DNA of 24,327 bases from positions 1 through 24,327 of the IMG/VR virus record IMGVR_UViG_3300027779_000152. One strand, 5' to 3'. The notes beneath the pieces are model-generated. The model was not told the origin of the DNA. It searched no databases and saw nothing but the letters and a program-made list of their open reading frames with translations. The position numbers were made by a program, and so were the translations under genes. This stretch comes from a virus. Shown here in pieces: positions 1 to 18,468 of the stretch. Numbering within the stretch: position 1 is the stretch's first letter; each line of letters begins with the position of its first letter.

Positions 1-912
1 ACTACTGTAGTAGATTTTAATTTTGATGCGGCAACAACTTCAACTGCAATGAGTATATCCGCAGATGGACTTGTTACAGGTACGGCCTTTAAAGTTGATA
101 GTGATTCTTCTGATACTGGTACAAGAAGTATTGCAAGTATAATTCAAAATCATTCCTCCGCAGTTGGTGCTACTGCACTTACAGTACAAGCTGATGCTGG
201 CAGAGGAATATTTATTAATACTGATCTTGCGGCCGGTGGATATGCACTTGAAATTGATGCAGAAATAACCACAACAAATACCGCCAAGATTGCAGCTATT
301 AGCACTAGTGGAACAACATTAGAAGTATCCTCTGTTGGTGTATTAACAGGAAAAGTTATTGATGTTACAGCCGATGCCGCCACTACTGGTACTGGTATTA
401 ATATGTCAATGGACGGATTAACTACTGGTGCAATGATGGCTCTTACTTCAGATTCTGCTGATACTGGAACAAGAACTTTAGTAACGATTACAAATGATAA
501 TGCCTTGGCAGTCGCGGCAGTTCCACTTGTAGTAACACAAGATTCTACGAATTGTGTAGCAAAATTTGTAGGAACATCAACAATAGTTGTTCCAGTTGGA
601 ACAACTTCCAATAGAGGTCCTTCTGTACAGGGTGGTATAAGATATAATACTACAACAAGTTCTTTTGAAGGATATAGTGGAGCAACATGGGCCGGTCTTG
701 GTGGACTTATTGATGTTGATCAAGATACAAAAATTCTTGCAGAAACATCAGCGGGAGCAGATAATGATGATTTAGATTTTTATACTCAAGGAACACAACG
801 GATGAAAATTGATGAAACCGGCGCAACAACAATTACAGGAAAATTAAGTGTTAAGGGTGGATATTCAGCGTATCATCAAATGACGCATGCCACATTGGCA
901 TTAGGATTATAA
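1..912 (+). CDS. Virion structural / tail-fibre-like protein, C-terminal part (5' end outside window)
   Basis: The frame is open from base 1, so the gene begins upstream; the first in-window ATG (49) is internal. The visible ~303 residues are Thr/Ser/Ala/Gly-rich and beta-predicted. They contain two copies of a ~60-residue unit built around DGLxTG...SDSxDTGTR (bases about 10-189 and 358-546). The C-terminal part has GGIRYNTTTSSFEGYSGATW and then a GTQRMKIDETGATTITG segment. Such phrases are usual at the ends of phage fibre or appendage proteins, where a trimeric shaft leads into a small head domain. No chaperone or peptidase motif is seen at the end. It is followed after 48 bp by a late-promoter-like AATAAATA and the next structural gene. 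The role as a distal tail or capsid fibre is inferred from composition and neighbours; the receptor-binding part cannot be identified. Confidence 0.75.
   Translation, partial: TTVVDFNFDAATTSTAMSISADGLVTGTAFKVDSDSSDTGTRSIASIIQNHSSAVGATALTVQADAGRGIFINTDLAAGGYALEIDAEITTTNTAKIAAISTSGTTLEVSSVGVLTGKVIDVTADAATTGTGINMSMDGLTTGAMMALTSDSADTGTRTLVTITNDNALAVAAVPLVVTQDSTNCVAKFVGTSTIVVPVGTTSNRGPSVQGGIRYNTTTSSFEGYSGATWAGLGGLIDVDQDTKILAETSAGADNDDLDFYTQGTQRMKIDETGATTITGKLSVKGGYSAYHQMTHATLALGL
10..546 (+). repeat. Two-copy ~60-residue protein repeat inside the fibre-like gene
   Basis: Copy one is about 10-189 and copy two about 358-546, offset by about 348 bases. Both read DAATT-T-MS-DGL-TG followed by SDS-DTGTR and then a hydrophobic beta stretch ending in VQAD or VTQD. 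At DNA level the copies have diverged, so this is an old internal duplication in a shaft-like structure and not a recent tandem repeat. Confidence 0.65.
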
Positions 913-960: not shown

Positions 961-1311
961 ATGGCAATTCCCAGCGGATCTGGAACGGAAGTACTAAAGA
1001 ACGCATTGTTCACCGTCACCGATACAACAGAAGCCAAACTGATTGATGGTGTTGCGAACCACGTATATACCGTTATAAGTATTTCGGTTTGTGAAACCGC
1101 AGGAGCAGCTGAAATTTTTAACTTGTTCATAGCTGATGACGGCGGTGCAACAGATTATGAAATTCTTTCAGATACATCAGTAAATGCAAATAAAACTTTT
1201 ATATTCAATGACCGGGTCGTATTAACAGGAACGGATGAATTAATATTTAAATCTAATGCAACTTGTGACATTGACATCGTGGTATCATATATCGATCAGG
1301 ACTGGAGTTAA
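961..1311 (+). CDS. Small beta-rich virion structural protein (116 aa), unnamed
   Basis: Family not recognised with certainty. The ATG is preceded by a good ribosome-binding site (AAAGGAGAA). The protein alternates hydrophobic and polar residues throughout, with segments such as HVYTVISISVCE, IFNLFIADDG and DIDIVVSYIDQDW, which suggests a single beta-sandwich domain of the decoration or appendage kind. There is no signal peptide or membrane segment. The plan (a strand pair near hYTVISISVCE and a final DIDIVVSYID strand) looks like the N- and C-terminal parts of the two Cys/Tyr-repeat proteins just downstream, which share KTWIAYGVCK and WLYYEEE strands. The three genes may therefore come from one fold family. 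Position between fibre-like genes supports a virion component; function unknown. Confidence 0.65.
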   Translation: MAIPSGSGTEVLKNALFTVTDTTEAKLIDGVANHVYTVISISVCETAGAAEIFNLFIADDGGATDYEILSDTSVNANKTFIFNDRVVLTGTDELIFKSNATCDIDIVVSYIDQDWS

Positions 1312-1314
1312 CAC

Positions 1315-1917
1315 ATGGCAAGAGGTAAAACAGGAGAAATAGGAGCACACGCACAAAAAATATTTAAAGCCTCTATTGCTGGTGCATCATTGCCGTCAAT
1401 TTCAGCCTCTAGTGTTCCAAAACATAAAACTTGGATAGCGTATGGAGTTTGTAAAACCGTTGAGGCCGCGGCTTATGCTATACAGACCGCCCAGACAACA
1501 GCTGTTGCAACATCAACTGTAACTACTAGAGGTGAAGCCGAATCTGGTGCAGACAGCGGAACCGGTGGTGGAACAGAAGGCGCTGCAGATAGTGGAACCG
1601 CTGGTGGAGTATTCTGTAATCACGGAGGTAGATATTACAGGGCACAGGGGTGTGCTAGATATTGTGCCCATTATTGTGCAAGATACTGTGCAAGATATTG
1701 TGCTCACTACTGTGCTAGATATTGTGGACTAGCGGGATACGGCTATGGTTTTGGATACGGCTATGGTTTTGGATTTGGATACGGATATGGAACAGCCAGA
1801 GGATATTCTGCAGACTGTACTGCAATTGCTGTTCATGGAAGTGGATCGTGGACCCAAATTGTTCCCGCAGGATTTACAGTAACTACATGGTTATATTACG
1901 AAGAAGAGGTTTGTTAA
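1315..1917 (+). CDS. Cys/Tyr-repeat structural protein, paralogue A (200 aa)
   Basis: Not a family I recognise. It starts 3 bp after the previous stop. Residues 1-60 (KIFKASIAGASLPSIS..KTWIAYGVC) and 165-200 (CTAIAVHGSGSWTQI...WLYYEEE) look like beta strands of one small sandwich domain. Between them is a long low-complexity insert. It comprises a Gly/Ser/Glu linker (about 70-100), a CNHGG motif (101-105), seven cysteines spaced exactly four residues apart (C113 to C137, units CARY or CAHY), and a Gly/Tyr/Phe tract (141-159, GYGYGF type). There are eleven cysteines in all. There is no signal peptide, so unless it is modified the protein is cytoplasmic until virion release. A second copy follows at once. 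The insert may be a surface-displayed, metal-binding or disulfide-bonded loop; this is inference. Confidence 0.75.
   Translation: MARGKTGEIGAHAQKIFKASIAGASLPSISASSVPKHKTWIAYGVCKTVEAAAYAIQTAQTTAVATSTVTTRGEAESGADSGTGGGTEGAADSGTAGGVFCNHGGRYYRAQGCARYCAHYCARYCARYCAHYCARYCGLAGYGYGFGYGYGFGFGYGYGTARGYSADCTAIAVHGSGSWTQIVPAGFTVTTWLYYEEEVC
1651..1725 (+). repeat. 12-bp coding tandem repeat (CARY/CAHY), six units plus a final Cys codon
   Basis: Units read TGTGCTAGATAT, TGTGCCCATTAT, TGTGCAAGATAC, TGTGCAAGATAT, TGTGCTCACTAC, TGTGCTAGATAT and then TGT. Third positions vary while Cys, Ala and Tyr are kept, and the third residue alternates Arg and His. This indicates protein-level selection on an array that may have arisen by slippage. 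Confidence 0.9.
1735..1791 (+). repeat. Gly-aromatic coding repeat (GY/GF dipeptides)
   Basis: Nineteen residues alternate Gly with Tyr or Phe. Codons are GGN followed by TAT, TAC or TTT, giving an 18-bp near-repeat (GGATACGGCTATGGTTTT) in the first part. The same tract follows the Cys repeat in the paralogue. Confidence 0.85.
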
Positions 1918-1953: not shown

Positions 1954-2562
1954 ATGTCAGGTATTGTAGGAAAAAAAGGCAGGACTGGCGAAGTTGAGGG
2001 GGTTGTATTTAAAGCTTCCATTAATACTACATCTTTACCAACGATTACGACTGCTAGCGTCCCAGTAGGAAGAACTTGGATAGCACATGGAGTTTGTAAA
2101 CTTGTTGAGGCCGCTACCATGTCTATAGGTGCAACATCAACGAACACAAAGGCAACCACACTATCGATGGGGCAAGGGGGAACCGGTGGTGGAGCAGAAG
2201 GCGCTGTAGATAGTGGAACAGCAGGTGCTGTAGATAGTGGAACCAGTGGTGGAGTATTCTGTAATCACGGAGGTGGACATTACAGGGCACAGGGGTGTGC
2301 TCAATATTGTGCTCATTACTGTGCAAGATATTGTGCTCACTACTGTGCTAGATATTGTGCAAGATATTGTGGAATAGCTGGATACGGATATGGATTTGGT
2401 TATGGTTATGGCTTTGGTTTCGGTTATGGATATGGAACCGCAAGAGGATATTCTGCACAATGTAAAGCCATTGCTGTTGCGGGAAGTGCTTCGTGGACCC
2501 AAATTATACCTGCAACTTTTTCGGTTACTTCATGGTTATATTACGAAGAAGAGCAGTGTTAA
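1954..2562 (+). CDS. Cys/Tyr-repeat structural protein, paralogue B (202 aa)
   Basis: Tandem paralogue of the upstream gene with the same plan: beta-like N-terminal part (to about residue 60), Gly-rich linker, CNHGG motif (103-107), seven cysteines at four-residue spacing (C115 to C139), Gly/Tyr/Phe tract (143-161), and a beta-like C-terminal part ending WLYYEEEQC. It also has eleven cysteines at equivalent places. The linker carries a doubled unit (GAVDSGTA then GAVDSGTS) absent as a pair in paralogue A. The two DNA sequences are nearly identical across the linker end, CNHGG motif and Cys array, but clearly diverged in the N-terminal third. This suggests gene conversion or strong constraint in the middle. 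The start has a strong AAGGAG site about 10 bases upstream. Probably a virion surface component; function unknown. Confidence 0.75.
   Translation: MSGIVGKKGRTGEVEGVVFKASINTTSLPTITTASVPVGRTWIAHGVCKLVEAATMSIGATSTNTKATTLSMGQGGTGGGAEGAVDSGTAGAVDSGTSGGVFCNHGGGHYRAQGCAQYCAHYCARYCAHYCARYCARYCGIAGYGYGFGYGYGFGFGYGYGTARGYSAQCKAIAVAGSASWTQIIPATFSVTSWLYYEEEQC
2296..2370 (+). repeat. 12-bp coding tandem repeat (CAQY/CAHY/CARY), six units plus a final Cys codon
   Basis: The order of third residues is Gln, His, Arg, His, Arg, Arg. The other paralogue has Arg, His, Arg, Arg, His, Arg. Unit number is the same but unit order differs, consistent with shuffling of units within or between the arrays. Confidence 0.9.
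2380..2436 (+). repeat. Gly-aromatic coding repeat (GY/GF dipeptides), second copy
   Basis: Residues 143-161 of paralogue B. The peptide is identical to the tract in paralogue A, but it uses different synonymous codons at several places. The peptide therefore appears to be under selection rather than recently copied. Confidence 0.85.
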
Positions 2563-2615: not shown

Positions 2616-3047
2616 ATGGCAGATATTGCACCAGGAGCATTTAATACGTTTAGTGATATGCGTTATAAACTAATGTTGAGGTATATTGCTGAATTAGAAT
2701 TAACACAATCAACTCAAGCGCCTGATAATCCAAGAGGTTTAACTGCTGCAGAAATAACAGCATTCAAAGCGTATAGGAAAGCATGGCACGATATAGCACA
2801 TGGTGATTTAGCTGGCGTACGTACAAATGAATTCGCTGAAATGATGTTACAAGGTATAGAGTTCCCAGAGTTTCCTGAAGGATGGAGAGTAACAACCCGC
2901 TCTGTTGGAGATTTACCTCCAATTCTTTGCAAAACGGACCACCTTGATGTATATGATGCAACTCTTGAACGTGATGAGGGTGATTTCACATTTACCATCA
3001 CAGATCACCGTATCGAAGGTGAATCAGATGAAGACGGGATTGCATAA
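2616..3047 (+). CDS. Small acidic protein, possible tail-fibre assembly chaperone-like (143 aa)
   Basis: The start is fixed by AAGGAG eight bases upstream. The protein is soluble, with a helical N-terminal half and no signal or membrane segment. Residues 43-60 (TAAEITAFKAYRKAWHDI) followed by FPEFPEGW (83-90) resemble the AYRxAxRDI...FPexvxWP pattern of small phage tail-fibre assembly/chaperone proteins that are encoded right after fibre genes. The C-terminal third (FTFTITDHRIEGESDED) is acidic. Position directly after fibre-type genes fits that role. The match is from memory of the motif only; alternatively it is an uncharacterised virion protein. Confidence 0.45.
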   Translation: MADIAPGAFNTFSDMRYKLMLRYIAELELTQSTQAPDNPRGLTAAEITAFKAYRKAWHDIAHGDLAGVRTNEFAEMMLQGIEFPEFPEGWRVTTRSVGDLPPILCKTDHLDVYDATLERDEGDFTFTITDHRIEGESDEDGIA

Positions 3048-3076: not shown

Positions 3077-3598
3077 ATGGAAATTATAGATAATTTTGTG
3101 CATCAAGAAAAATTTGATGAATTACAAGATTTGATTCTTGGTGCAAATTTTTCTTGGTATTATAATTCTATGATTGATTATGCAGAGGATGTAGACAAAT
3201 TTCAGTTCATCCATGGCTTTTATACCAACCATTCCCCATGTTCTCCATATTTTCACAATTTAAATCCCGTATTGGAAATAATAAATCCAATATCATTATG
3301 GCGTATAAAAGCAAATTTACTTACGATAACACCGAATATTGTTGAAAATGATTTTCATATTGATATGGGTGGCATATCAAATGAAAAATTAAACCAATTG
3401 ACAACAGCTATTTTTTATTTGAACACTAATAATGGGTATACTGAATTTCAGGATGGAAGAATTGCAATGGAAAACACTAAAGTTAAAAGTGTTGCAAATA
3501 GATTGGTTACTTTTCCGGCTAGCTTGAGACATCGTGGAACATCATGTACAGATGAAAAAAATAGAGTTGTTATAAATTTTGATTATTTTAAAGGTTGA
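3077..3598 (+). CDS. 2OG-Fe(II) oxygenase (173 aa)
   Basis: Cupin-type non-haem iron dioxygenase that would couple 2-oxoglutarate decarboxylation to oxidation of an unknown substrate. The iron triad is visible: H94-x-D96 in FHIDMGG, and H152 in SLRHRGT. R163 in KNRVVINFDYF is placed to bind 2-oxoglutarate. Strands TTAIFYLNTNNGYTEF and VANRLVTFPA match the double-stranded beta-helix core of the prolyl-4-hydroxylase-like superfamily. The length is short but typical for phage members. The ATG has only a weak ribosome-binding site. It is the first gene of the enzyme block, six bases before the glycosyltransferase gene. Phage 2OG oxygenases are common in T4-like cyanophages, with mostly unknown substrates. 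Confidence 0.85.
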   Translation: MEIIDNFVHQEKFDELQDLILGANFSWYYNSMIDYAEDVDKFQFIHGFYTNHSPCSPYFHNLNPVLEIINPISLWRIKANLLTITPNIVENDFHIDMGGISNEKLNQLTTAIFYLNTNNGYTEFQDGRIAMENTKVKSVANRLVTFPASLRHRGTSCTDEKNRVVINFDYFKG

Positions 3599-3604
3599 TT
3601 TATT

Positions 3605-4546
3605 ATGAATAATATAAAAAATATTTTATACTATTACCACGATTCATGTGGTTTGGGTGATTTTTATCTACTATTTCCCATATTTGACGCATTAAGAACT
3701 AAGCACAAAAATGACAATATTACTTTATTATCAAATGATACAATAAAAGATATTGCATATAATAAAAAATGGTTTGATAATTATGAAAATATTGTTGACT
3801 TTGATTTTCCAATAAATCGTTTTGATAGAGTTTATAACTGGGATGTTCAAAAACAGGGTATCACTTTATTCTATCCCCCCAAAAAACATTTCTGGGAAAT
3901 TGTTTCTGAAAATTTAGATATTACATTAAATAGATCCAACTTTTCTGATATCTTTCGATTAGAGTTGACAGCCCATGAGAAAGATCAAGTGGATCAAATA
4001 CTTTCAAAAGACAAAACCAACATCGTTCTTCACACAGGACATTCCTATAAATTTCCCTATGGTAAAACTCCCGATTATGAGTGGTGGTATAATTTAACAA
4101 CAGAATTACCTGATGCTAACTTTATTCAAGTTGGTACAAAACAGGAACCACCTGTTGATAGACCTTCTAGAATAGTTCCAGATTATCATATTCATGCCGA
4201 GAATTGTATTGATTTAAGAGATGAGATTAATCTTCGACAAGTTGCATATTTGCTTGAACGCACAGATACATTTGTTGCTATTGATTCAATTGTTGCTCAT
4301 TTATCATTACATTCAAATAAAAAAGGTATTGTGATGTGGGGTAGTTCTAATTCTAACACACATGGACATGAGCACAATATAAATTTGGAAGCAATACGTC
4401 ATTGTGGTAAACCTCCTTGTATTGATTTGGGAGGCTTCATTGTTCCAAATGATCAAAATCAAAACTGTTGCCTTATGCCTGACAATGTTAAAGAAGATGT
4501 TTGGCCACTTATGGCTGAAGTAGTACATGAGATAAATTCAATATGA
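3605..4546 (+). CDS. GT9-like glycosyltransferase A (313 aa)
   Basis: Resembles glycosyltransferase family 9, the ADP-heptose:LPS heptosyltransferase superfamily with a GT-B fold. The N-terminal SCGLGDFYLLFPIFDALR (14-31) corresponds to the family's GDxxxxxPxxxALR start. IVLHTGHSYKFP (140-151) begins the second Rossmann domain. FVAIDSIVAHLS (223-234) matches the conserved DSxxxH nucleotide-sugar-binding motif (D227, H232). The Cys-containing tail (PPCIDLGG...NQNCCLMPD) is also GT9-like. It would transfer a sugar to an acceptor in the cytoplasm. The donor is unknown; a heptose is not implied. Its stop overlaps the next start as ATGA, so the two glycosyltransferases are translationally coupled and probably act on one glycan. 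Confidence 0.75.
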   Translation: MNNIKNILYYYHDSCGLGDFYLLFPIFDALRTKHKNDNITLLSNDTIKDIAYNKKWFDNYENIVDFDFPINRFDRVYNWDVQKQGITLFYPPKKHFWEIVSENLDITLNRSNFSDIFRLELTAHEKDQVDQILSKDKTNIVLHTGHSYKFPYGKTPDYEWWYNLTTELPDANFIQVGTKQEPPVDRPSRIVPDYHIHAENCIDLRDEINLRQVAYLLERTDTFVAIDSIVAHLSLHSNKKGIVMWGSSNSNTHGHEHNINLEAIRHCGKPPCIDLGGFIVPNDQNQNCCLMPDNVKEDVWPLMAEVVHEINSI

Positions 4547-5391
4547 AAAATTTATATGTCGTACATGGAGGAATGGGAAAAAATATCCTTTTCACTTCAT
4601 TAATTCCATCTCTGTGTAAAAAAGATGGAGTTGAAAAGATTTCTGTAATGTCTCCCTGGCCTTTTATATTTCGTTACAATAAACAAATTGACGGGGTTGA
4701 GCCGTTTGATAGACAGTTTGGTTGGAAATTACATCCACACCTAACAAAATATGACAACATTATTTACCACGAACCGTATTATTCTAATTATATTATAGAT
4801 GAAAACATACACATGGTAGATGATTGGGCACGGGGGTTAGACATAGAACCTGTTATCAATAAACCGCATGTGCCGATAATGAATATTAAGGACGGCCACA
4901 CATTTTATTCCATATCTCCAGATGAAACTTGTGGTCCACCTGAAAAAAAATATTGTGTAGTTCATTTTAATGGTGGATACGGGCAACAAGGTGATAATAT
5001 AATTATTCCAAGAGATTATAGACTTGATCTCGTTCAAAAATTGATATCTAAAATTAGAAAAGAATTTAATTTAGATGTGATTTGTTTTCGACTACAAACC
5101 GAGCCAAAACCATCCGATACTATAACTTTTAAAGCAAATACTGAAGACGGCCTATTAAATATACTACCAATTATTAATGATTCAGAATTTGTTATTAGTA
5201 TAGATTCTTCATTAAAACATTTAGCGGCATGTACCGATACAAAAACAATAGCTCTTTATAATAAAACAGAAACACGTCCAGAAAAGATTGGATATAGTTT
5301 TCAAACTAATCTAATGTGTGAAAATGGTATTTGTATTGATATAGATCCTAAAACTATTTTCGATACAATTGAGAAAGAGTGTTATGGATAA
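4543..5391 (+). CDS. GT9-like glycosyltransferase B (282 aa)
   Basis: A second, diverged GT-B/GT9-type protein. VVHGGMGKNILFTSLIPSL (6-24) is the N-terminal glycine loop and helix. YCVVHFNGGYGQQGD (137-151) opens the C-terminal Rossmann domain. FVISIDSSLKHLAAC (216-230) is the DSSxxH motif (D221, H226), followed by TKTIALYNKTETRPEKIGY. It is shorter than typical heptosyltransferases (about 320-350 aa). The ATGA overlap with glycosyltransferase A and the 8-base overlap with the following oxygenase place it firmly in one operon. Donor and acceptor unknown. The two copies are dissimilar enough to suggest successive sugar additions rather than a recent duplication. Confidence 0.7.
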   Translation: MKNLYVVHGGMGKNILFTSLIPSLCKKDGVEKISVMSPWPFIFRYNKQIDGVEPFDRQFGWKLHPHLTKYDNIIYHEPYYSNYIIDENIHMVDDWARGLDIEPVINKPHVPIMNIKDGHTFYSISPDETCGPPEKKYCVVHFNGGYGQQGDNIIIPRDYRLDLVQKLISKIRKEFNLDVICFRLQTEPKPSDTITFKANTEDGLLNILPIINDSEFVISIDSSLKHLAACTDTKTIALYNKTETRPEKIGYSFQTNLMCENGICIDIDPKTIFDTIEKECYG

Positions 5392-6373
5392 AGGCTCTAT
5401 ATTCACCAGAGTACATAATAGAATAAATTATATTAATTTTCAAGAGATTTTCCCTCTTAAACCAGGACTAAAGGACCGTGTAGAACTTGTTAAATTAGAT
5501 CTAGGTGAAGACTATCCAGAACCTTTCAATTATTTCGTTACTCTACATGATGTATATCTATTTCCTGAACGAGTAAAAGAATATGCGGAATCTCTGCAAT
5601 ATACAAATGCGGCCAGTATTGTGAATTATGCTCCAGTATCTCGTACTTTCGGTCCAATTTCTATTGTTGTATATGAAACTCTTACTGAAATTATCAATAA
5701 TGTTTATGGTAGGCATTTCACACATTTTCCTCTAGATTATCTCGCCATGTTTTCATTTATATCCGATGATGCAATGACTTGGCACCGGCATAATGATGGA
5801 CATTATGACATTCAAGAAAATGACGAAAAAAATTTAAACGGTGTTTTACATTTAGAAGACCATATCGGCACAGAACTTATGGTGTATAAAGATCTTCCTC
5901 ATATGACCCGTCCGCTAAGTGGGGCATCTGCTACTTTTCCAAAAGGTGCAGATTCTCATCTTAAAACAATAATCCGATCCTCTGGAAAGTGTAATACACT
6001 AACTTGTTATTATGGTCACATTTTACATAGACCCGATTATCCAAGTCTCAAAGATACGCAAAAAGGTGGTCGGTTAACTCAAAACATGTTCTATGATGAT
6101 ATGACTAGGAAATATATTGGAGATAAAAGAGAAGAATCATCAAAAAAACAGTTCGAAGCAATTGAAGATTTTATTAAATATGATACAATGAATGATTTCT
6201 TACTGACTGAGGCAACGCCGTGGAAAGATAAAAAAACGCTGAACTTAACTCACAGTACCCACCACATAAATAAAATGGATGATCCCCTATTATCAAAATA
6301 TATTAAAGCAAAAAAAGAATCAGGACTATATGATATAATATTTAAAAAGGAAAAGGAAATTGGACAAAATTAA
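5384..6373 (+). CDS. 2OG-Fe(II) oxygenase-like protein, possibly DUF6445-type (329 aa)
   Basis: I start it at ATG 5384, which overlaps the previous stop by 8 bases. An upstream in-frame TTG (5369) would overlap further and has no better ribosome-binding site. Residues 50-110 (FVTLHDVYLFPERVKEYAESL) form the helix-rich entry seen before iron/2OG folds. The triad is H136-x-D138 in TWHRHNDGHYD, then H212 or H215 in YYGHILHRPDY, and R230 in GGRLTQNMF. The strand pair GVLHLEDHIGTELMVYKD is the core beta-helix. The general pattern recalls DUF6445 proteins, which are often encoded beside tryptophan halogenases in bacteria, and the next gene here is such a halogenase. The C-terminal ~90 residues are extra and unassigned. 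Substrate unknown. Confidence 0.65.
   Translation: MDKGSIFTRVHNRINYINFQEIFPLKPGLKDRVELVKLDLGEDYPEPFNYFVTLHDVYLFPERVKEYAESLQYTNAASIVNYAPVSRTFGPISIVVYETLTEIINNVYGRHFTHFPLDYLAMFSFISDDAMTWHRHNDGHYDIQENDEKNLNGVLHLEDHIGTELMVYKDLPHMTRPLSGASATFPKGADSHLKTIIRSSGKCNTLTCYYGHILHRPDYPSLKDTQKGGRLTQNMFYDDMTRKYIGDKREESSKKQFEAIEDFIKYDTMNDFLLTEATPWKDKKTLNLTHSTHHINKMDDPLLSKYIKAKKESGLYDIIFKKEKEIGQN
6353..6362 (+). promoter_or_regulatory. Ribosome-binding site deciding a TTG start
   Basis: The sequence AAAAGGAAAAGGAAAT runs directly into TTG at 6360. No ATG or GTG lies in frame between the upstream stop (6336-6338) and the GxGxxG-like loop of the halogenase. TTG is therefore the only sensible start, and it is supported by AGGA motifs. 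It overlaps the preceding gene by 14 bases. Confidence 0.7.
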
Positions 6374-7970
6374 AAAAATAATAATTGCCGGCGGTGGTTC
6401 TTCCGGTTGGATGACAGCATCTTGTTTAATTAAAAATTGCCCAGATATACAAATTACTGTAATTGATACGGAAACTATTCCAATAATTGGAGTAGGAGAA
6501 TCTACCATTTTACATATAAATGATTTTTTACGAAATTTAGATTTAGCTGATGATGTTTGGATGAAATATTGTAATGCTACTTATAAATTATCAATAAATT
6601 ATACAAATTGGAATGGTGATGGTAAAACCTATAGATATCCTTTTAGTGAATCAAGATGGATGGATAAGTATAAACCAATTGACTGGTTTATTAAAGAATC
6701 TGTTATGGGTACAAATAATAGTTCAGAATATTGTGATTTTGCGGTCAATACAGGCGAATTGATGCGAAATAACAAATTAGTAAAGTATAGTGAATATATT
6801 CCTGGTTGGAATTTTGATTATAATACCGCATATCATTTTGACGCGGCTTTGTTTGCAAAATTTTTAAAAAATGAATATTGTATTCCTAAAGGCGTACAAC
6901 ATTTTAATGATAGAATAATTGATGTTGAAAAGTGTGAAGATGGTTCTATTAAATCACTAATGACTGAAAAATCTAATAAAATGTCGGCAGATTTATATAT
7001 TGATTGTACCGGATTTAAATCTTTATTATTAGAAAAAAGTTTACAAGAACCTTATATTTCTTTTGGTGATAAATTAATTAATGACAAGGCTGTAGCGACA
7101 CATTTATCTTATGTTGATAAAGAAGTAGAACTAGTACACAATACAGATGCATATGCCCTATCTTCAGGTTGGGTATGGAATACTCCTCTTTGGAATAGTA
7201 TTGGTACGGGTTATGTATATAGTTCTCAATTTTTAACAGAAGAAGATGCAGAAAAAGAATTTAAAGATTATTTAATTAATGAAAGGAACGTTGTTCATTC
7301 ACGTAAAGAAGTAGAAAATCTAACCTTGCATCATGTACCTATTCATTCGGGTATACATGAACGAGCCTGGGTAAAAAATGTTTGTGCGATAGGATTATCG
7401 TATGGATTTGTTGAACCTTTAGCTTCTACTGGATTAATGTTCATTACACGCCAAGCTCAAAATTTAGTAAATATATTAAAAAGAAGAAAAAATAATGCGG
7501 TAACAGGTATAAGTAGGTCTATCTATAACAACCAGGTTAAAGATATGGTATTACAGGGTTATGAATTTATTTGTGCACATTATGCATTTACTGAAAGACA
7601 GGACAGCCCTTATTGGAATTATCTAACAAATGAACTAGATTACTCTGTAGAAAATATTATTAAAGATTCATTATTTATTGATGTTATTCCAAAGAAAATG
7701 TGTAATACATATAATAACTGGTGGAATACTGCAGGACGGGCTGATGATTTTCTTCTTTTTATTGTAGCCGGCTGTGGTTTTAATCCTACAGAACATATTT
7801 TTACAGATTTAGTTTTAAATAATCACGTAGGATCTAACACCACATTACTTGATGAATCTACACGGCTTAATAAAGATATTATAGAATATCGAAATAAACA
7901 ACGTAATTATGTTAAAACATTACAAACACATTATCAATTCTTAAAAAATACAATTTATAAGGAAGAATGA
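6360..7970 (+). CDS. Flavin-dependent halogenase, tryptophan-halogenase family (536 aa)
   Basis: This family uses reduced flavin, O2 and halide to make hypohalous acid, which halogenates electron-rich aromatics. Visible are the FAD-binding loop IIIAGGGSSGWMTA (7-20), GVGEST (44-49), and K76 in NATYKLSINY at the place of the catalytic lysine (PrnA K79). Further matches are AYHFDAALFAKFL (157-169), YIDCTGFKSLL, and the family signature W-x-W-x-x-P (W271, W273, P276) with SGWVWNTP. VEPLASTGLMF (351-361) matches the PrnA EPLESTG loop, but the residue equal to PrnA E346 is alanine (A355). Length is normal for the family (about 500-540). The TTG start has a good ribosome-binding site and the end overlaps the next gene by ATGA. 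A virus-encoded member, VirX1 from cyanophage Syn10, is known and iodinates varied substrates, so a phage halogenase has precedent. Partner flavin reductase not seen here; substrate unknown. Confidence 0.93.
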   Translation: MDKIKKIIIAGGGSSGWMTASCLIKNCPDIQITVIDTETIPIIGVGESTILHINDFLRNLDLADDVWMKYCNATYKLSINYTNWNGDGKTYRYPFSESRWMDKYKPIDWFIKESVMGTNNSSEYCDFAVNTGELMRNNKLVKYSEYIPGWNFDYNTAYHFDAALFAKFLKNEYCIPKGVQHFNDRIIDVEKCEDGSIKSLMTEKSNKMSADLYIDCTGFKSLLLEKSLQEPYISFGDKLINDKAVATHLSYVDKEVELVHNTDAYALSSGWVWNTPLWNSIGTGYVYSSQFLTEEDAEKEFKDYLINERNVVHSRKEVENLTLHHVPIHSGIHERAWVKNVCAIGLSYGFVEPLASTGLMFITRQAQNLVNILKRRKNNAVTGISRSIYNNQVKDMVLQGYEFICAHYAFTERQDSPYWNYLTNELDYSVENIIKDSLFIDVIPKKMCNTYNNWWNTAGRADDFLLFIVAGCGFNPTEHIFTDLVLNNHVGSNTTLLDESTRLNKDIIEYRNKQRNYVKTLQTHYQFLKNTIYKEE

Positions 7971-9238
7971 ATTTTAAAAACCGATTTTCTATTGCCCATC
8001 CTGAAAAAGATATGAAGGATTTTCCTAATCATTATTATTTGGTTTTGAAAAATACCCCACAATCTATTTTAGATGAAATTGAAGATATTTACTTTGGAAA
8101 AATGTTTTATTACACATATAGGAGACAAAGAAAATTTGTCGGTAATGCTATGGGGCAAGAAGCGACCGATGGACATATAGATAGTCTTCTCCGAATACAA
8201 GAGGAGCTTGGAGTTGAAGTTTCTCTTACAATGAATCAAACTGTATGGCCTAATGAAATGATTCTAGAACAAACTCTACAAGATGAGTTTGTAGAATGGA
8301 TTGGTAAGTATTATGATAGAGGATTAAGAAGCTGTACAATTTCTTCCAAACATTTAATGAGGACAATGAAATTACAACATCGATGTCCTAATATGAAATG
8401 GAAGAATACTGTAAACCATATAATATCTGATGGACAACAAGTAGCCGATACAATAGGAATTGGTTATGATACAATACTTCTTGATCGTTCATTAAATAGA
8501 AACATTAAAGAGTTAAGAAGAATTAATAAGTTAATACAAAGACAAACAAGGCCGGTAAAAACATCGCTTCTCGTATCAGAGGGGTGTTTATATAGTTGTC
8601 CTTTTAAATTAGAACATGATATGTCATCTACAGTTATAGGTGGAAACTATTGGGGTGGTGACAATGCTCTTTCGGCTCTTTCGTGTAATAATTGGAAATC
8701 TGATGAAATGGATAGACTACCAAGAAATGGTATTGACATGGTTACTACTGATAAAGAAATGTTAGATCAATATTTGGATAAGAAGGTGGGAGGAGTAGAC
8801 ATACTAAAAACTTCTGGTAGATTTGATGGCCGATTCTATAACAAATATTCTGAAGATGATATTAAAAATAAGAATATAAAATTAATGAGACAGTTGAGAG
8901 TACAGAAAAAATTCTATACTGACCCGCCACCTTTAGTTGCATCATCATTTGGTGATGTTTATGAATTGAATGCAGTTCCTTTTGATCAATGGTTATTACT
9001 TTATCCAACAGAAGATGAAGCAAACTTAACAAAAGATAGTTACCAAAAGTATTATGATGAATATTTACAGGATGAACTTTGGTTATCTGAAAAGGGTAAG
9101 AGGTTGAATAGAATACTTTTAAATTGTAAATCACAATGTTATGATTGTCATGAATGTGAAAGAACATTTGGAATACCAGATTATGACAGTTCAATAAATG
9201 AAATAGATGCAGAAGAAAGATTTGCCAGAGTGAGTTAA
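7967..9238 (+). CDS. U32-peptidase-like Cys-rich protein, possible Fe-S TIM-barrel (423 aa)
   Basis: The ATGA overlap ties it to the halogenase. Segments recall the U32 family TIM barrel: VEVSLTMNQTVWPNEM (83-98), IGYDTILLDRSLNRNIKEL (165-183), LLVSEGCLYSCPFKLEH (201-217), a middle VGGVDILKTSGRF (274-286), and Cys-rich NCKSQCYDCHEC (386-397). Cysteines C207, C211, C240 and C387/391/394/397 could hold one or two iron-sulfur clusters. Known U32 members with Fe-S clusters (UbiU/UbiV, TrhP, RlhA) act in hydroxylation of ubiquinone or RNA rather than proteolysis. I see no radical-SAM CxxxCxxC near the N-terminus. The assignment is by motif memory and moderate. An oxygen-transfer or maturation role in the same pathway as the halogenase is inferred from coupling. 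Confidence 0.55.
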   Translation: MNFKNRFSIAHPEKDMKDFPNHYYLVLKNTPQSILDEIEDIYFGKMFYYTYRRQRKFVGNAMGQEATDGHIDSLLRIQEELGVEVSLTMNQTVWPNEMILEQTLQDEFVEWIGKYYDRGLRSCTISSKHLMRTMKLQHRCPNMKWKNTVNHIISDGQQVADTIGIGYDTILLDRSLNRNIKELRRINKLIQRQTRPVKTSLLVSEGCLYSCPFKLEHDMSSTVIGGNYWGGDNALSALSCNNWKSDEMDRLPRNGIDMVTTDKEMLDQYLDKKVGGVDILKTSGRFDGRFYNKYSEDDIKNKNIKLMRQLRVQKKFYTDPPPLVASSFGDVYELNAVPFDQWLLLYPTEDEANLTKDSYQKYYDEYLQDELWLSEKGKRLNRILLNCKSQCYDCHECERTFGIPDYDSSINEIDAEERFARVS

Positions 9239-9239
9239 A

Positions 9240-10481
9240 ATGAATATATTAGGAATAAATGGATCTGTGGGCTGGGATGGAAATATTGGGGTTATTAATG
9301 GTCAAGATTATTGGGTACATGGATCAGGAGCTACATTATTTATAGATGGAGAATTAAAAGGTTCTTTGTCAGAAGAACGATTAACAAGATTAAAATATGA
9401 TGGTGGTTATCCAAAAGCCGTTATTGGTCAACTTCTCCTAAAGAATGATTTAACAGTAGATGATATTGATATAGTAGCTTATGTAAGTAATGCATGTATG
9501 ATGGCATATAGTTTAAAGTTGCAGGGGCACACTAATAAATTATTATCATCTATATTTCCAAATGCAAAGATGATGTTTATAGATCATCATTTAGCTCATA
9601 CAGCCGCTTCCTTTTTATCATCAGGTTTTTCAGAATCTAATATATTTTCGTTTGACGGCGCTGGTGATTTTTATCCTACTATGGGTCAACGTTTAAAGTT
9701 AAATAATTCTGTTTTTTCTAATGGTTTCCGTGATAATAAAGACATAGTACCTTTACAGCAAACATTTTTAGATGAAAATTTTAATTTGTTTGGTTCTTTA
9801 TATACAGAATTTTCATCAATGATTTATCAGCTTAAAGTTGAGGGTAAGATAGAAAATAAAATGATAGATGATTATGCAAAAGTACAGGCTGAATTAAATC
9901 TTACTACATTTGATTCGGCTGTTGATATGACAGATTATGAATATAAGTTTGATGATAATATGTATATGGGCCCCATTTTACGTGAAACTCATCCTGGTAA
10001 AATTATGGGATTGGCTTCTTATGGGGATTATAATAATATTGATGTTCCAGATATATTTGATTTAATATTTTATGATAATATGCCAGTTATACATCTCAAT
10101 CAATCGTTAAAGAGGGTTATTTTTAATAAATGTGAAAATTCTGAGTTTAAAGCAGAGGATTTAGCTAGTTGGTTACAACATCAATTTGAAAAATATTTAT
10201 TAATATATTTAAATAATATCCCAGAAAAATATAAATTAAAAAAATTGTGTCTAGCTGGTGGTTGTGCATTAAATATCATTACAAATTCTAAAATTATAGA
10301 AGATGGTATATATGAAGATGTCCATGTTAATACGGCGCCAAATGATGATGGATTAAATTTTGGTGCTGCAATTTACTGTACGTGGAAAAATGAAAAAGAC
10401 TTAATACTACCTGAAAATATTGGTTGTATCGGATTCGATTATCCACTTAATAATATAGAAGAATATGAAAATAAAACATAA
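9240..10481 (+). CDS. Carbamoyltransferase, N-terminal Kae1-like domain (413 aa; split gene)
   Basis: NodU/CmcH/TobZ-type O-carbamoyltransferase, which transfers carbamoyl from carbamoyl phosphate via a carbamoyl-adenylate to a hydroxyl of a sugar or small molecule. Visible are MNILGINGS with SEERLTRLKYDGGYP (44-58), the metal-binding IDHHLAHTAASF (114-125; H116, H117, H120), FDGAGD (138-143), a later HPGKIMGLASYG, LAGGCALN, and APNDDGLNFGAA. The family normally runs on for ~180 residues in a second domain. Here the frame stops at 10481, and that domain is encoded in the +1 frame from 10465. The start is 1 bp after the preceding stop. Either a genuine two-subunit arrangement, a frameshift, or a base error explains the break. 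Confidence 0.85.
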   Translation: MNILGINGSVGWDGNIGVINGQDYWVHGSGATLFIDGELKGSLSEERLTRLKYDGGYPKAVIGQLLLKNDLTVDDIDIVAYVSNACMMAYSLKLQGHTNKLLSSIFPNAKMMFIDHHLAHTAASFLSSGFSESNIFSFDGAGDFYPTMGQRLKLNNSVFSNGFRDNKDIVPLQQTFLDENFNLFGSLYTEFSSMIYQLKVEGKIENKMIDDYAKVQAELNLTTFDSAVDMTDYEYKFDDNMYMGPILRETHPGKIMGLASYGDYNNIDVPDIFDLIFYDNMPVIHLNQSLKRVIFNKCENSEFKAEDLASWLQHQFEKYLLIYLNNIPEKYKLKKLCLAGGCALNIITNSKIIEDGIYEDVHVNTAPNDDGLNFGAAIYCTWKNEKDLILPENIGCIGFDYPLNNIEEYENKT

Positions 10482-11034
10482 AAAATATGAAAATTTTAAC
10501 AATTTATGTGAAATAGTTGTTGATGCTTTATTGGAAAACAAAATAATCGGATGGTTTCAAGGTAAAAGTGAATTTGGTCCTAGAGCTTTAGGGAATAGGT
10601 CTATACTAGCAAATCCAACTATTAAAGACAATAAAGATTATATTAATGAGAGAATAAAACATCGGGAAAGTTGGAGGCCATATGCGCCAATTATGCTAGA
10701 AGAATATTTACATGATTGGTATGACATTCCTAAAAAATCTTCACCTTACATGTTATTTAATGCTACTATTTTACCTGAAAAAGATGGTCAAGTACCCGCA
10801 GTAACTCATGTAGATGGAACGGCCAGAGTACAGACAGTAACCAAAGAATTAAATAAACCAGTTTTTCAGTTATTAACCGAATTTAATAAAAGAACTAATG
10901 TTCCTATATTATTGAACACATCATTTAATGTTGGTGGAGAACCTATAGTAGAATCCCCTGAAGACGCGATAAAAACATTTAAAGGTTCAAATATTGATGT
11001 GTTAGTTATGGGAAATTATATAGTTACAAAATAG
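10465..11034 (+). CDS. Carbamoyltransferase, C-terminal domain (189 aa; split gene)
   Basis: Matches the C-terminal domain of NodU/CmcH carbamoyltransferases: IIGWFQGKSEFGPRALGNRS (28-47), then RESWRPYAPIMLEE, SSPYML, HVDGTARVQTV and PILLNTSFNVGGEPIVESPEDA. This half carries conserved substrate-binding parts and is not known to act alone. Its ATG lies 17 bases inside the preceding frame, with GAAG upstream as a weak ribosome-binding site. Its frame is closed by TAG at 10456-10458, so any frameshift fusion must occur between 10459 and 10478. Joined, the two parts give a protein of about 595 residues, normal for the family. It is the last gene of the enzyme block, and a 74-bp gap with a late promoter follows. 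Confidence 0.85.
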   Translation: MKIKHKKYENFNNLCEIVVDALLENKIIGWFQGKSEFGPRALGNRSILANPTIKDNKDYINERIKHRESWRPYAPIMLEEYLHDWYDIPKKSSPYMLFNATILPEKDGQVPAVTHVDGTARVQTVTKELNKPVFQLLTEFNKRTNVPILLNTSFNVGGEPIVESPEDAIKTFKGSNIDVLVMGNYIVTK

Positions 11035-17388: not shown

Positions 17389-17996
17389 TGATTCATTATA
17401 TTAGACAAGAAACAGAATGGTTGTTTCCTGTGCCCCTGTGGAAATTTAGTTTGCCTAATTGTAAGAATATTAATAAAAAAATAGAGAAGAGAATTTACCA
17501 AAAATCTAAAGAGGAAAAAACTAGATCGGCCTCTAATGAGGGTGGATGGCACTCTATAGGAAATATGTATGATGATCCGGTGATGGAACCTGTCACAACA
17601 TTAATTTCACAAGGAATCAACGAAATACGTATTGAATCCGGTATGACTTATGGTACTTATAAAACTTTTCTTTGGTCTAATTTAAATCGTTCAGGAGATT
17701 ATAATATTATGCATGCTCATCCTGACAGTCATTTGAGTGGCGTTTATTATGTTAAAGTGCCTGAGGGGGATTGTGGTGAATTGAGATTATATAATCCAAT
17801 GTATCTCTATACTTATCCCAATTCACAAGGTAAAAATCCCCCACATACCACGCCTAGAGTTAATATAAAAAGTGAGGAAGGTGTCTTATTGATTTTTAGA
17901 TCACCGATTATGCATGATGTTACTAGGAATAATACTCAAGAAGATAGGATTAGTGTATCATTCAATATAGTATTTGATTCTAATCTTTATAAATGA
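17388..17996 (+). CDS. 2OG-Fe(II) oxygenase, TIGR02466-like (202 aa)
   Basis: The pattern fits the small 2OG-oxygenase group described by TIGR02466: LWSNLNRSGDYNIMHAHPDS followed by LSGVYYVKVPEGDCGELRLYNP. The iron ligands would be H111-x-D113 and H176 in RSPIMHDV, with R187 in EDRISVSFNI for 2-oxoglutarate. The N-terminus EWLFPVPLWKF (10-20) is the family's usual FPTPLW-type opening. The full length is present. It overlaps gp17 by one base and its last 17 bases lie opposite the convergent HNH-like gene. Members are common in marine T4-like phages; substrates are unknown. Confidence 0.8.
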   Translation: MIHYIRQETEWLFPVPLWKFSLPNCKNINKKIEKRIYQKSKEEKTRSASNEGGWHSIGNMYDDPVMEPVTTLISQGINEIRIESGMTYGTYKTFLWSNLNRSGDYNIMHAHPDSHLSGVYYVKVPEGDCGELRLYNPMYLYTYPNSQGKNPPHTTPRVNIKSEEGVLLIFRSPIMHDVTRNNTQEDRISVSFNIVFDSNLYK

Positions 17997-18468
17997 AGGG
18001 ATCTATATCCGCAAAGTTAACTTCAGTAGGTGGGTTGTTTATTTCTGTTATTAAATCTTCAATTTTATTAGATAGATCAGGTCTTTCCTTTTTTAATCTG
18101 TTTAGAAAACTTAGAGAACCAGTAACTAATTGATCTGGACGGATAGATAATCTTTTTCCTATTCTTCTTTTATCGGATACTTCAAGGTGTTTGGGATTTA
18201 CACAGGATGGATTGAAACATGTTTGAGTCACTACTTCAGTAGATGTTAGTTCACCTCGTACTCCGGAAATGGATGAGAAATTACCATACATCATAAACGC
18301 ATATCTACTGGCGGGAATAGTTTGACCCATTACAGAAAACATTCCATGACCTGTTTTATTTTTTGAAGCGAGCCAGATATGACACTCTGTATTTTTTTCA
18401 GAACGATCAACTTTTTTAAGAAACCGATCTTTTATTTTTTTACTGTCTATTAATTTATATTTGTCCAT
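17980..18468 (-). CDS. HNH-endonuclease-like protein with altered motif (162 aa)
   Basis: The only minus-strand gene. AAGGAAGT directly precedes its ATG. The layout is that of the phage HNH_3-type or HNH-homing-like proteins: CHIWLASKNKTGHGMFSV (29-46), ASRYAFMMYGNF (53-64), then TQTCFNPSCVNPKHLEV (81-97). C84 and C89 form the usual zinc knuckle, and N91 and H94 are the N and last H of HNH. The first catalytic His (normally HxC) is Gln (Q82), and the usual AHR is ASR. Nuclease activity may therefore be lost or altered, leaving a DNA-binding protein. The C-terminal ~60 residues are charged and helical. It has its own late-like promoter. Could be a homing nuclease relic or a regulator. Confidence 0.65.
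   Translation of the reverse strand: MDKYKLIDSKKIKDRFLKKVDRSEKNTECHIWLASKNKTGHGMFSVMGQTIPASRYAFMMYGNFSSISGVRGELTSTEVVTQTCFNPSCVNPKHLEVSDKRRIGKRLSIRPDQLVTGSLSFLNRLKKERPDLSNKIEDLITEINNPPTEVNFADIDPFIYKD

Follow-up and report, generated by a model that had tools for sequence, protein, structure and literature searches.

In the tail fiber protein gp37 of phage T4, an elongated domain (residues 882–1009) is inserted in the collar domain and carries seven irons, held by histidines, along the length of the trimer; the iron-binding histidines are essential (PMC6957217). HxH motifs are also reported in the fibers of marine phages (PMC11705849), an Fe-S cluster bound by cysteines lies on the outer surface of the phage lambda tail tip (PMC10721106), and adhesins of the gp38 type are small, glycine-rich, fiber-adjacent proteins (PMC12892980). 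The receptor-facing proteins of the uncultured T4-like phages of the sea are largely uncharted.

Here, we have tried to follow one pair of adjacent genes, ORF A and ORF B, in the DNA of such a virus (the window, by which we mean the whole stretch of 24,327 nucleotides of IMG/VR record IMGVR_UViG_3300027779_000152 that was analyzed). Each encodes a ladder of cysteines spaced four residues apart and, just after it, a tract in which glycine alternates with tyrosine or phenylalanine. We argue that this design is genuine and kept by selection in a handful of related marine phages, and that it is likely to form an arm of a novel sort at the end of the tail.

Architecture of the Two Genes

ORF A (1315–1917, plus strand) encodes 200 amino acids, with β-strand flanks (approximately residues 12–50 and 163–200) around an insert of 110 residues. 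Within the insert, a tract rich in Gly, Asp, Glu, Ser, and Thr (1528–1611, plus strand) lies 5′ of the array, CARYCAHYCARYCARYCAHYCARYC, whose seven cysteines stand at an exact spacing of four (1651–1725, plus strand) and whose third-position residues read R H R R H R; a GLA link then leads into the Gly-Tyr/Phe tract, GYGYGFGYGYGFGFGYGYG, which is 19 residues long (1735–1791, plus strand). An initial annotation of this DNA had described the seven cysteines and the 19-residue tract, and the translated frame bears out both; its statement that each cysteine is followed by Ala, Arg/His, and Tyr is true of the first six and fails at the seventh, after which comes Gly-Leu-Ala. Absent from that annotation was a second copy of the whole architecture, ORF B (1954–2562, plus strand; 202 aa), a tandem paralogue directly 3′ of ORF A with a seven-cysteine array (2296–2370, plus strand; third-position residues Q H R H R R) and a 19-residue Gly-Tyr/Phe tract (2380–2436, plus strand) of its own. 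When ORF A was shuffled 20,000 times, the period-4 cysteine run was never longer than four, and so the array is not a matter of chance.

Two AlphaFold2 models draw the flanks as β strands, with a block pLDDT of mostly 75–92, and give the insert values mostly under 40; where they draw any structure there, it is short helices and not strands. With confident strands on both sides, the models support the idea, already put forward in the initial annotation, that the array and the Gly tract are inserted between the two halves of a small β domain. The companion idea that cysteines at i and i+4 would form one face of an α helix does not survive, as each step drifts by about 40° and seven cysteines would span about 240°. 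In an extended strand (and this is geometry, not a result), the cysteines would share a face with the Arg/His at i+2, opposite the one that bears Ala and Tyr. Searches with the two models in Foldseek and VIA returned no tail-protein fold and no usable match, an absence that is uninformative because the inserts are unpredicted in the models.

Relatives

With ORF A as the query, IMG/VR yielded ten loci from eight distinct phages (L012 and L018 repeat the sequences of L011 and L017, respectively); every locus has two or three tandem copies, with five to eight cysteines in register. Two further carriers are contigs binned in metagenome-assembled genomes of Pelagibacterales and Chloroflexi (L028 and L029); their gene order is that of the phages, and they are probably viral contigs that were misbinned. 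The set used for conservation comprised 20 proteins from 9 distinct contigs, the window counted. Elsewhere, there was little to find: no relative of ORF A or ORF B among 50,697 records of isolate phages, none in plasmids, nothing credible in Pfam, PHROG, or PDB-sequence searches with the two proteins and their profiles, and no Pfam family for either in hmmscan up to an E of 0.1. One match to an antibody (E 0.012) covers a short stretch only, and we took it for a chance, composition-driven similarity. From the few IMG/VR loci and the lack of credible relatives elsewhere, it follows that the family is small, uncultured, and, in what was searched, undescribed, in keeping with the initial annotation, whose author knew of no described phage protein with this architecture.

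General scans for period-4 Cys or CxxY arrays gave, among the matches listed, no new array joined to a Gly-aromatic tract; those matches were mostly low-complexity or wrong-frame repeats. Five viral contigs (L176, L182, L216, L250, and L255) have extended repeats of a tetrapeptide, FCxG in one frame and, in some of them, apparently SVxx in another; these are not kin to the cysteine-ladder family and are apparently a different period-4 repeat protein. Gly-Tyr runs lie within otherwise ordinary phage protein domains at eight other loci (L038, L047, L061, L065, L072, L093, L099, and L100), and Gly-aromatic loops seem to be recurrent in phage proteins.

Selection on the Array

Across the 20 proteins, the spacing of four is unbroken while the number of cysteines in register runs from five to eight, which supports the initial annotation on this point. 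The invariant core is C117-x-H119-Y-C121-A-R123, with Y116 and Y120 nearly invariant, and conservation extends to Y132, C133, and C137 as well as to some of the Gly-aromatic tract. A comparison of codons over 241 pairs of units within arrays found 28 synonymous and 0 nonsynonymous differences at Cys, 124 and 47 at Ala, and 100 and 23 at Tyr, with 152 nonsynonymous differences at the third position of the unit; Cys is the sole strictly invariant position of the repeat. Because synonymous codons vary freely and no Cys is altered, selection must act at the level of the protein. One might have supposed that the array is a by-product of slippage in repeated DNA, with no function, as the number of units does differ among phages. 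Yet neighboring units differ synonymously while the protein is kept, and even phages that have diverged share the register and the core unchanged; the codon pattern contradicts slippage without selection, and we regard that origin as barely credible.

The third position is variable but not haphazard. Taking one array per lineage, Arg and His change places in 18 of 22 steps, against a mean of 12.4 in shuffles (P 0.003), and because this alternation goes beyond what the shuffles give, the real unit has eight residues. Neither this alternation nor the sister family without cysteines, described below, figures in the initial annotation.

Homogenization and a Sister Family

Between the window and its near-identical relative L009, the fiber-like protein and the 116-aa neighbor upstream of ORF A are 98–99% identical, ORF A is 85% identical, and ORF B is 81% identical. 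Over the gene, most informative sites (63) join the copies as orthologues between the phages, ORF A to ORF A and ORF B to ORF B; in one variable block of approximately 100 bp (1549–1650, plus strand; alignment columns 241–342), 13 sites join A with B within a genome, and 0 sites support the orthologues. From these sequence patterns, we read the block as a segment homogenized by gene conversion or its equivalent, evolving in concert within each genome and ending on the base that adjoins the start of the array. Such homogenization suggests that ORF A and ORF B must both show the same version of what precedes the array.

A scan for the Gly-aromatic tract, whose other matches were mostly simple repeats, led to one more phage, L080, with a partial terminase 89% identical to that of the window. 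Its four tandem paralogues (L080:5555–7450) have the β domain and the Gly-aromatic tract without the cysteine array; its place is taken by a cassette rich in His and Asn, with HxH in the form of HGH or HPH. A hidden Markov model of the N-terminal flank, with the Gly tract excluded, placed the four L080 copies at the top of 34,699 ORFs, with E from 8e-5 to 0.39; by itself, the C-terminal flank matched them weakly. An I-P-H anchor ahead of the L080 cassette is common to several members with cysteine arrays. With the same domain and tract, a different cassette, and a shared anchor, the arm cassette, whether Cys ladder or His/Asn, looks to be the swappable part.

Gene Neighborhood

The terminase, approximately 60% identical to its counterparts in HTVC008M and cyanophages, places the virus among T4-like marine myoviruses, and the contig also has neck, sheath, and portal genes. 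Upstream of ORF A are the C-terminal part of a repeat-bearing, fiber-like virion structural protein (1–912, plus strand; phrog_6005) and a conserved gene of 116 aa (961–1311, plus strand) with no detectable homology to ORF A or ORF B; leaving the window aside, this pair directly precedes the family genes at seven of the eight distinct loci that carry the array. Downstream, a protein of 143 aa (2616–3047, plus strand) resembles tail assembly chaperones (PF16778) at E 0.14, and a homologue of it at E 0.027, both below the Pfam cutoff. The family genes of L017 adjoin a homologue of the L-shaped tail fiber assembly proteins and also lie beside neck and tail completion genes, and a Gly-rich PF21722 protein follows the fiber and baseplate genes in the Pelagibacter phage HTVC008M. 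From this context of genes, we infer that ORF A and ORF B are virion structural proteins.

Between the tail-end and neck genes lies a block of 2OG-Fe(II) oxygenases (3077–11034) that includes two glycosyltransferase-like genes, a protein of 423 aa that is 99% identical in L009 and is without a Pfam match, and two ORFs (9240–10481 and 10465–11034) over which a NodU-like carbamoyltransferase is split. A flavin-dependent tryptophan halogenase (6360–7970) sits within the structural cluster; near-identical L009 has no halogenase at that spot, and so the gene is a recent gain or loss. With this halogenase and several 2OG oxygenases so close, the Tyr/Cys repeats might be their substrates, in the manner of a modified peptide, but the empty locus of L009 and the presence of a halogenase in only two of nine relative records (fragments), one of which, L080, has no cysteine array, make this very improbable. 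Elsewhere in the window, an ORF resembling an HNH-type homing endonuclease (17980–18468, minus strand) has the terminase region on one side and the tail sheath gene on the other, and the late-promoter-like motif TATAAATA is not enriched (7 found, 4.8 expected).

A Proposed Role

What might such an arm do? We propose that ORF A and ORF B are accessory, adhesin-like virion proteins of the tail region whose arm faces the receptor and is stiffened by the Cys/His ladder, and our confidence in this is evenly poised. The most likely place for the proteins would be where the tail meets the receptor, on the fiber tip or the baseplate, each anchored by its small β domain. The 110-residue arm between the halves of that domain would begin with a flexible, acidic Gly/Ser/Asp stretch, continue as the Cys-Ala-Arg/His-Tyr ladder, and end in the Gly-aromatic tract, which if extended would put every ring on one face. 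With their side chains sorted by face in this way, the two tracts could pack as a stiff bundle of strands, probably across several chains; the cysteines, with the alternate histidines, would staple the arm through metal ligation or disulfides, and its exposed end would touch the host. Several things count against the proposal: none of the 50,697 phage records gives a match, AlphaFold2 is not confident in the insert and draws short helices where it draws anything, Foldseek and VIA gave no tail-protein fold, and the likeness of the neighboring gene to a chaperone is below threshold. Seven exposed thiols would also be chemically odd in oxic seawater, unless they are stapled.

How the staple is made divides the possibilities further. 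In a sharper form of the arm proposal, trimeric arms would bind a line of metal ions (Fe, Zn, or Cu), or else of Fe-S clusters, through C-x-H-x-C, and the array would do with thiolates what the HxH iron ladder does in the T4 gp37 needle. The invariance of C-x-H-Y-C, the alternation of Arg and His, and the HxH-bearing, His-rich cassette at the equivalent place in L080 all speak for it, and the seven irons of the T4 needle (PMC6957217) and the HxH motifs of marine phage fibers (PMC11705849) are precedents; against it, ORF A and ORF B have no HxH, about every second unit carries an Arg, which is no ligand, and trimer and fold are putative, with no structural match. We consider the metal array a tentative possibility, and its most explicit version, in which period-8 C-x-H-Y-C-x-R units from several chains would align so that ions or clusters are bound in a row along an arm of the tail tip, an unlikely one. 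The main rival to a Cys/His metal staple is a stack of disulfides between adjacent chains or between paralogues A and B, zipping up the arm in oxic water after lysis. It would make good sense of the strict invariance that Cys alone shows within the unit, and of A and B arrays that are equal in length within a genome at most loci; it would also leave the invariant His and the alternation superfluous, odd numbers of cysteines do occur, and the oxidative folding of five to eight identical repeats would be prone to mispairing, so that we think it improbable as well. The proteins could, finally, belong elsewhere on the virion, for example as decoration of the head or neck, with the Gly-aromatic arm as a generic sticky surface. 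The gene context is, after all, the entire structural cluster, and the L017 copies lie beside neck and tail completion genes, but the fiber-like protein and 116-aa gene directly ahead of the family at seven of the eight distinct loci beyond the window, together with the synteny with HTVC008M, make this location decidedly improbable.

Comparison with Known Systems

Returning to the stapled tail-end arm, we can ask how far described systems resemble it. Cysteine-liganded metal in a phage tail tip has its precedent in lambda gpL, although gpL has four irregularly spaced cysteines and belongs to another family and to a siphophage; comparison of ORF A and ORF B with described tail-tip families such as this one gave no credible Pfam or PHROG match. 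The gp065 protein of HTVC008M, a related marine myovirus, is Gly-rich and occupies a comparable slot after the fiber and baseplate genes, but it is poly-Gly, has no cysteine array, and shows no sequence match; it does match the PF21722 (Gly_rich_2) profile, for which neither ORF A nor ORF B gave a match above the cutoff. With the gp38 adhesins of T2-type phages, built as a polyglycine-II sandwich, our proteins share small size, richness in Gly, variable segments beside Gly-rich motifs, and nearness to a fiber gene (ORF A lies downstream of the fiber-like protein with one 116-aa gene between them, the distal-fiber identity being putative). Unlike those adhesins, they carry a cysteine array, have no Pfam match, and alternate Gly with Tyr or Phe, with none of the Gly-Gly runs of the polyglycine-II motif.

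The resemblance to the tip of T4 gp37 (collar D10 with needle D11) is of another kind. In gp37, and putatively in ORF A and ORF B, all of them from T4-like phages, a small domain has between its halves a long, repetitive, Gly-rich insert, along which residues of a metal-ligand type form a ladder; in ORF A and ORF B, the halves are strands predicted with good confidence, and the insert is without prediction. However, gp37 is a 1,026-aa fiber end, whereas ORF A and ORF B are separate small tandem genes, with a strictly alternating Gly-aromatic tract and Cys/His in place of His, and because they have no Pfam collar match and no HxH, they are not members of the collar-needle group. What the family offers is a compact design, a fixed β anchor with a swappable arm, partly homogenized between paralogues, and by analogy, it may work as the gp37 needle does, stapled in its case by Cys and His. 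Metal binding by the ladder, if real, would bear directly on the proposal that iron is carried by phage tails in the sea; if ions or clusters are truly lined up there by thiolates, these phages would carry Cys-bound metal, and their adsorption would depend on metal or redox state.
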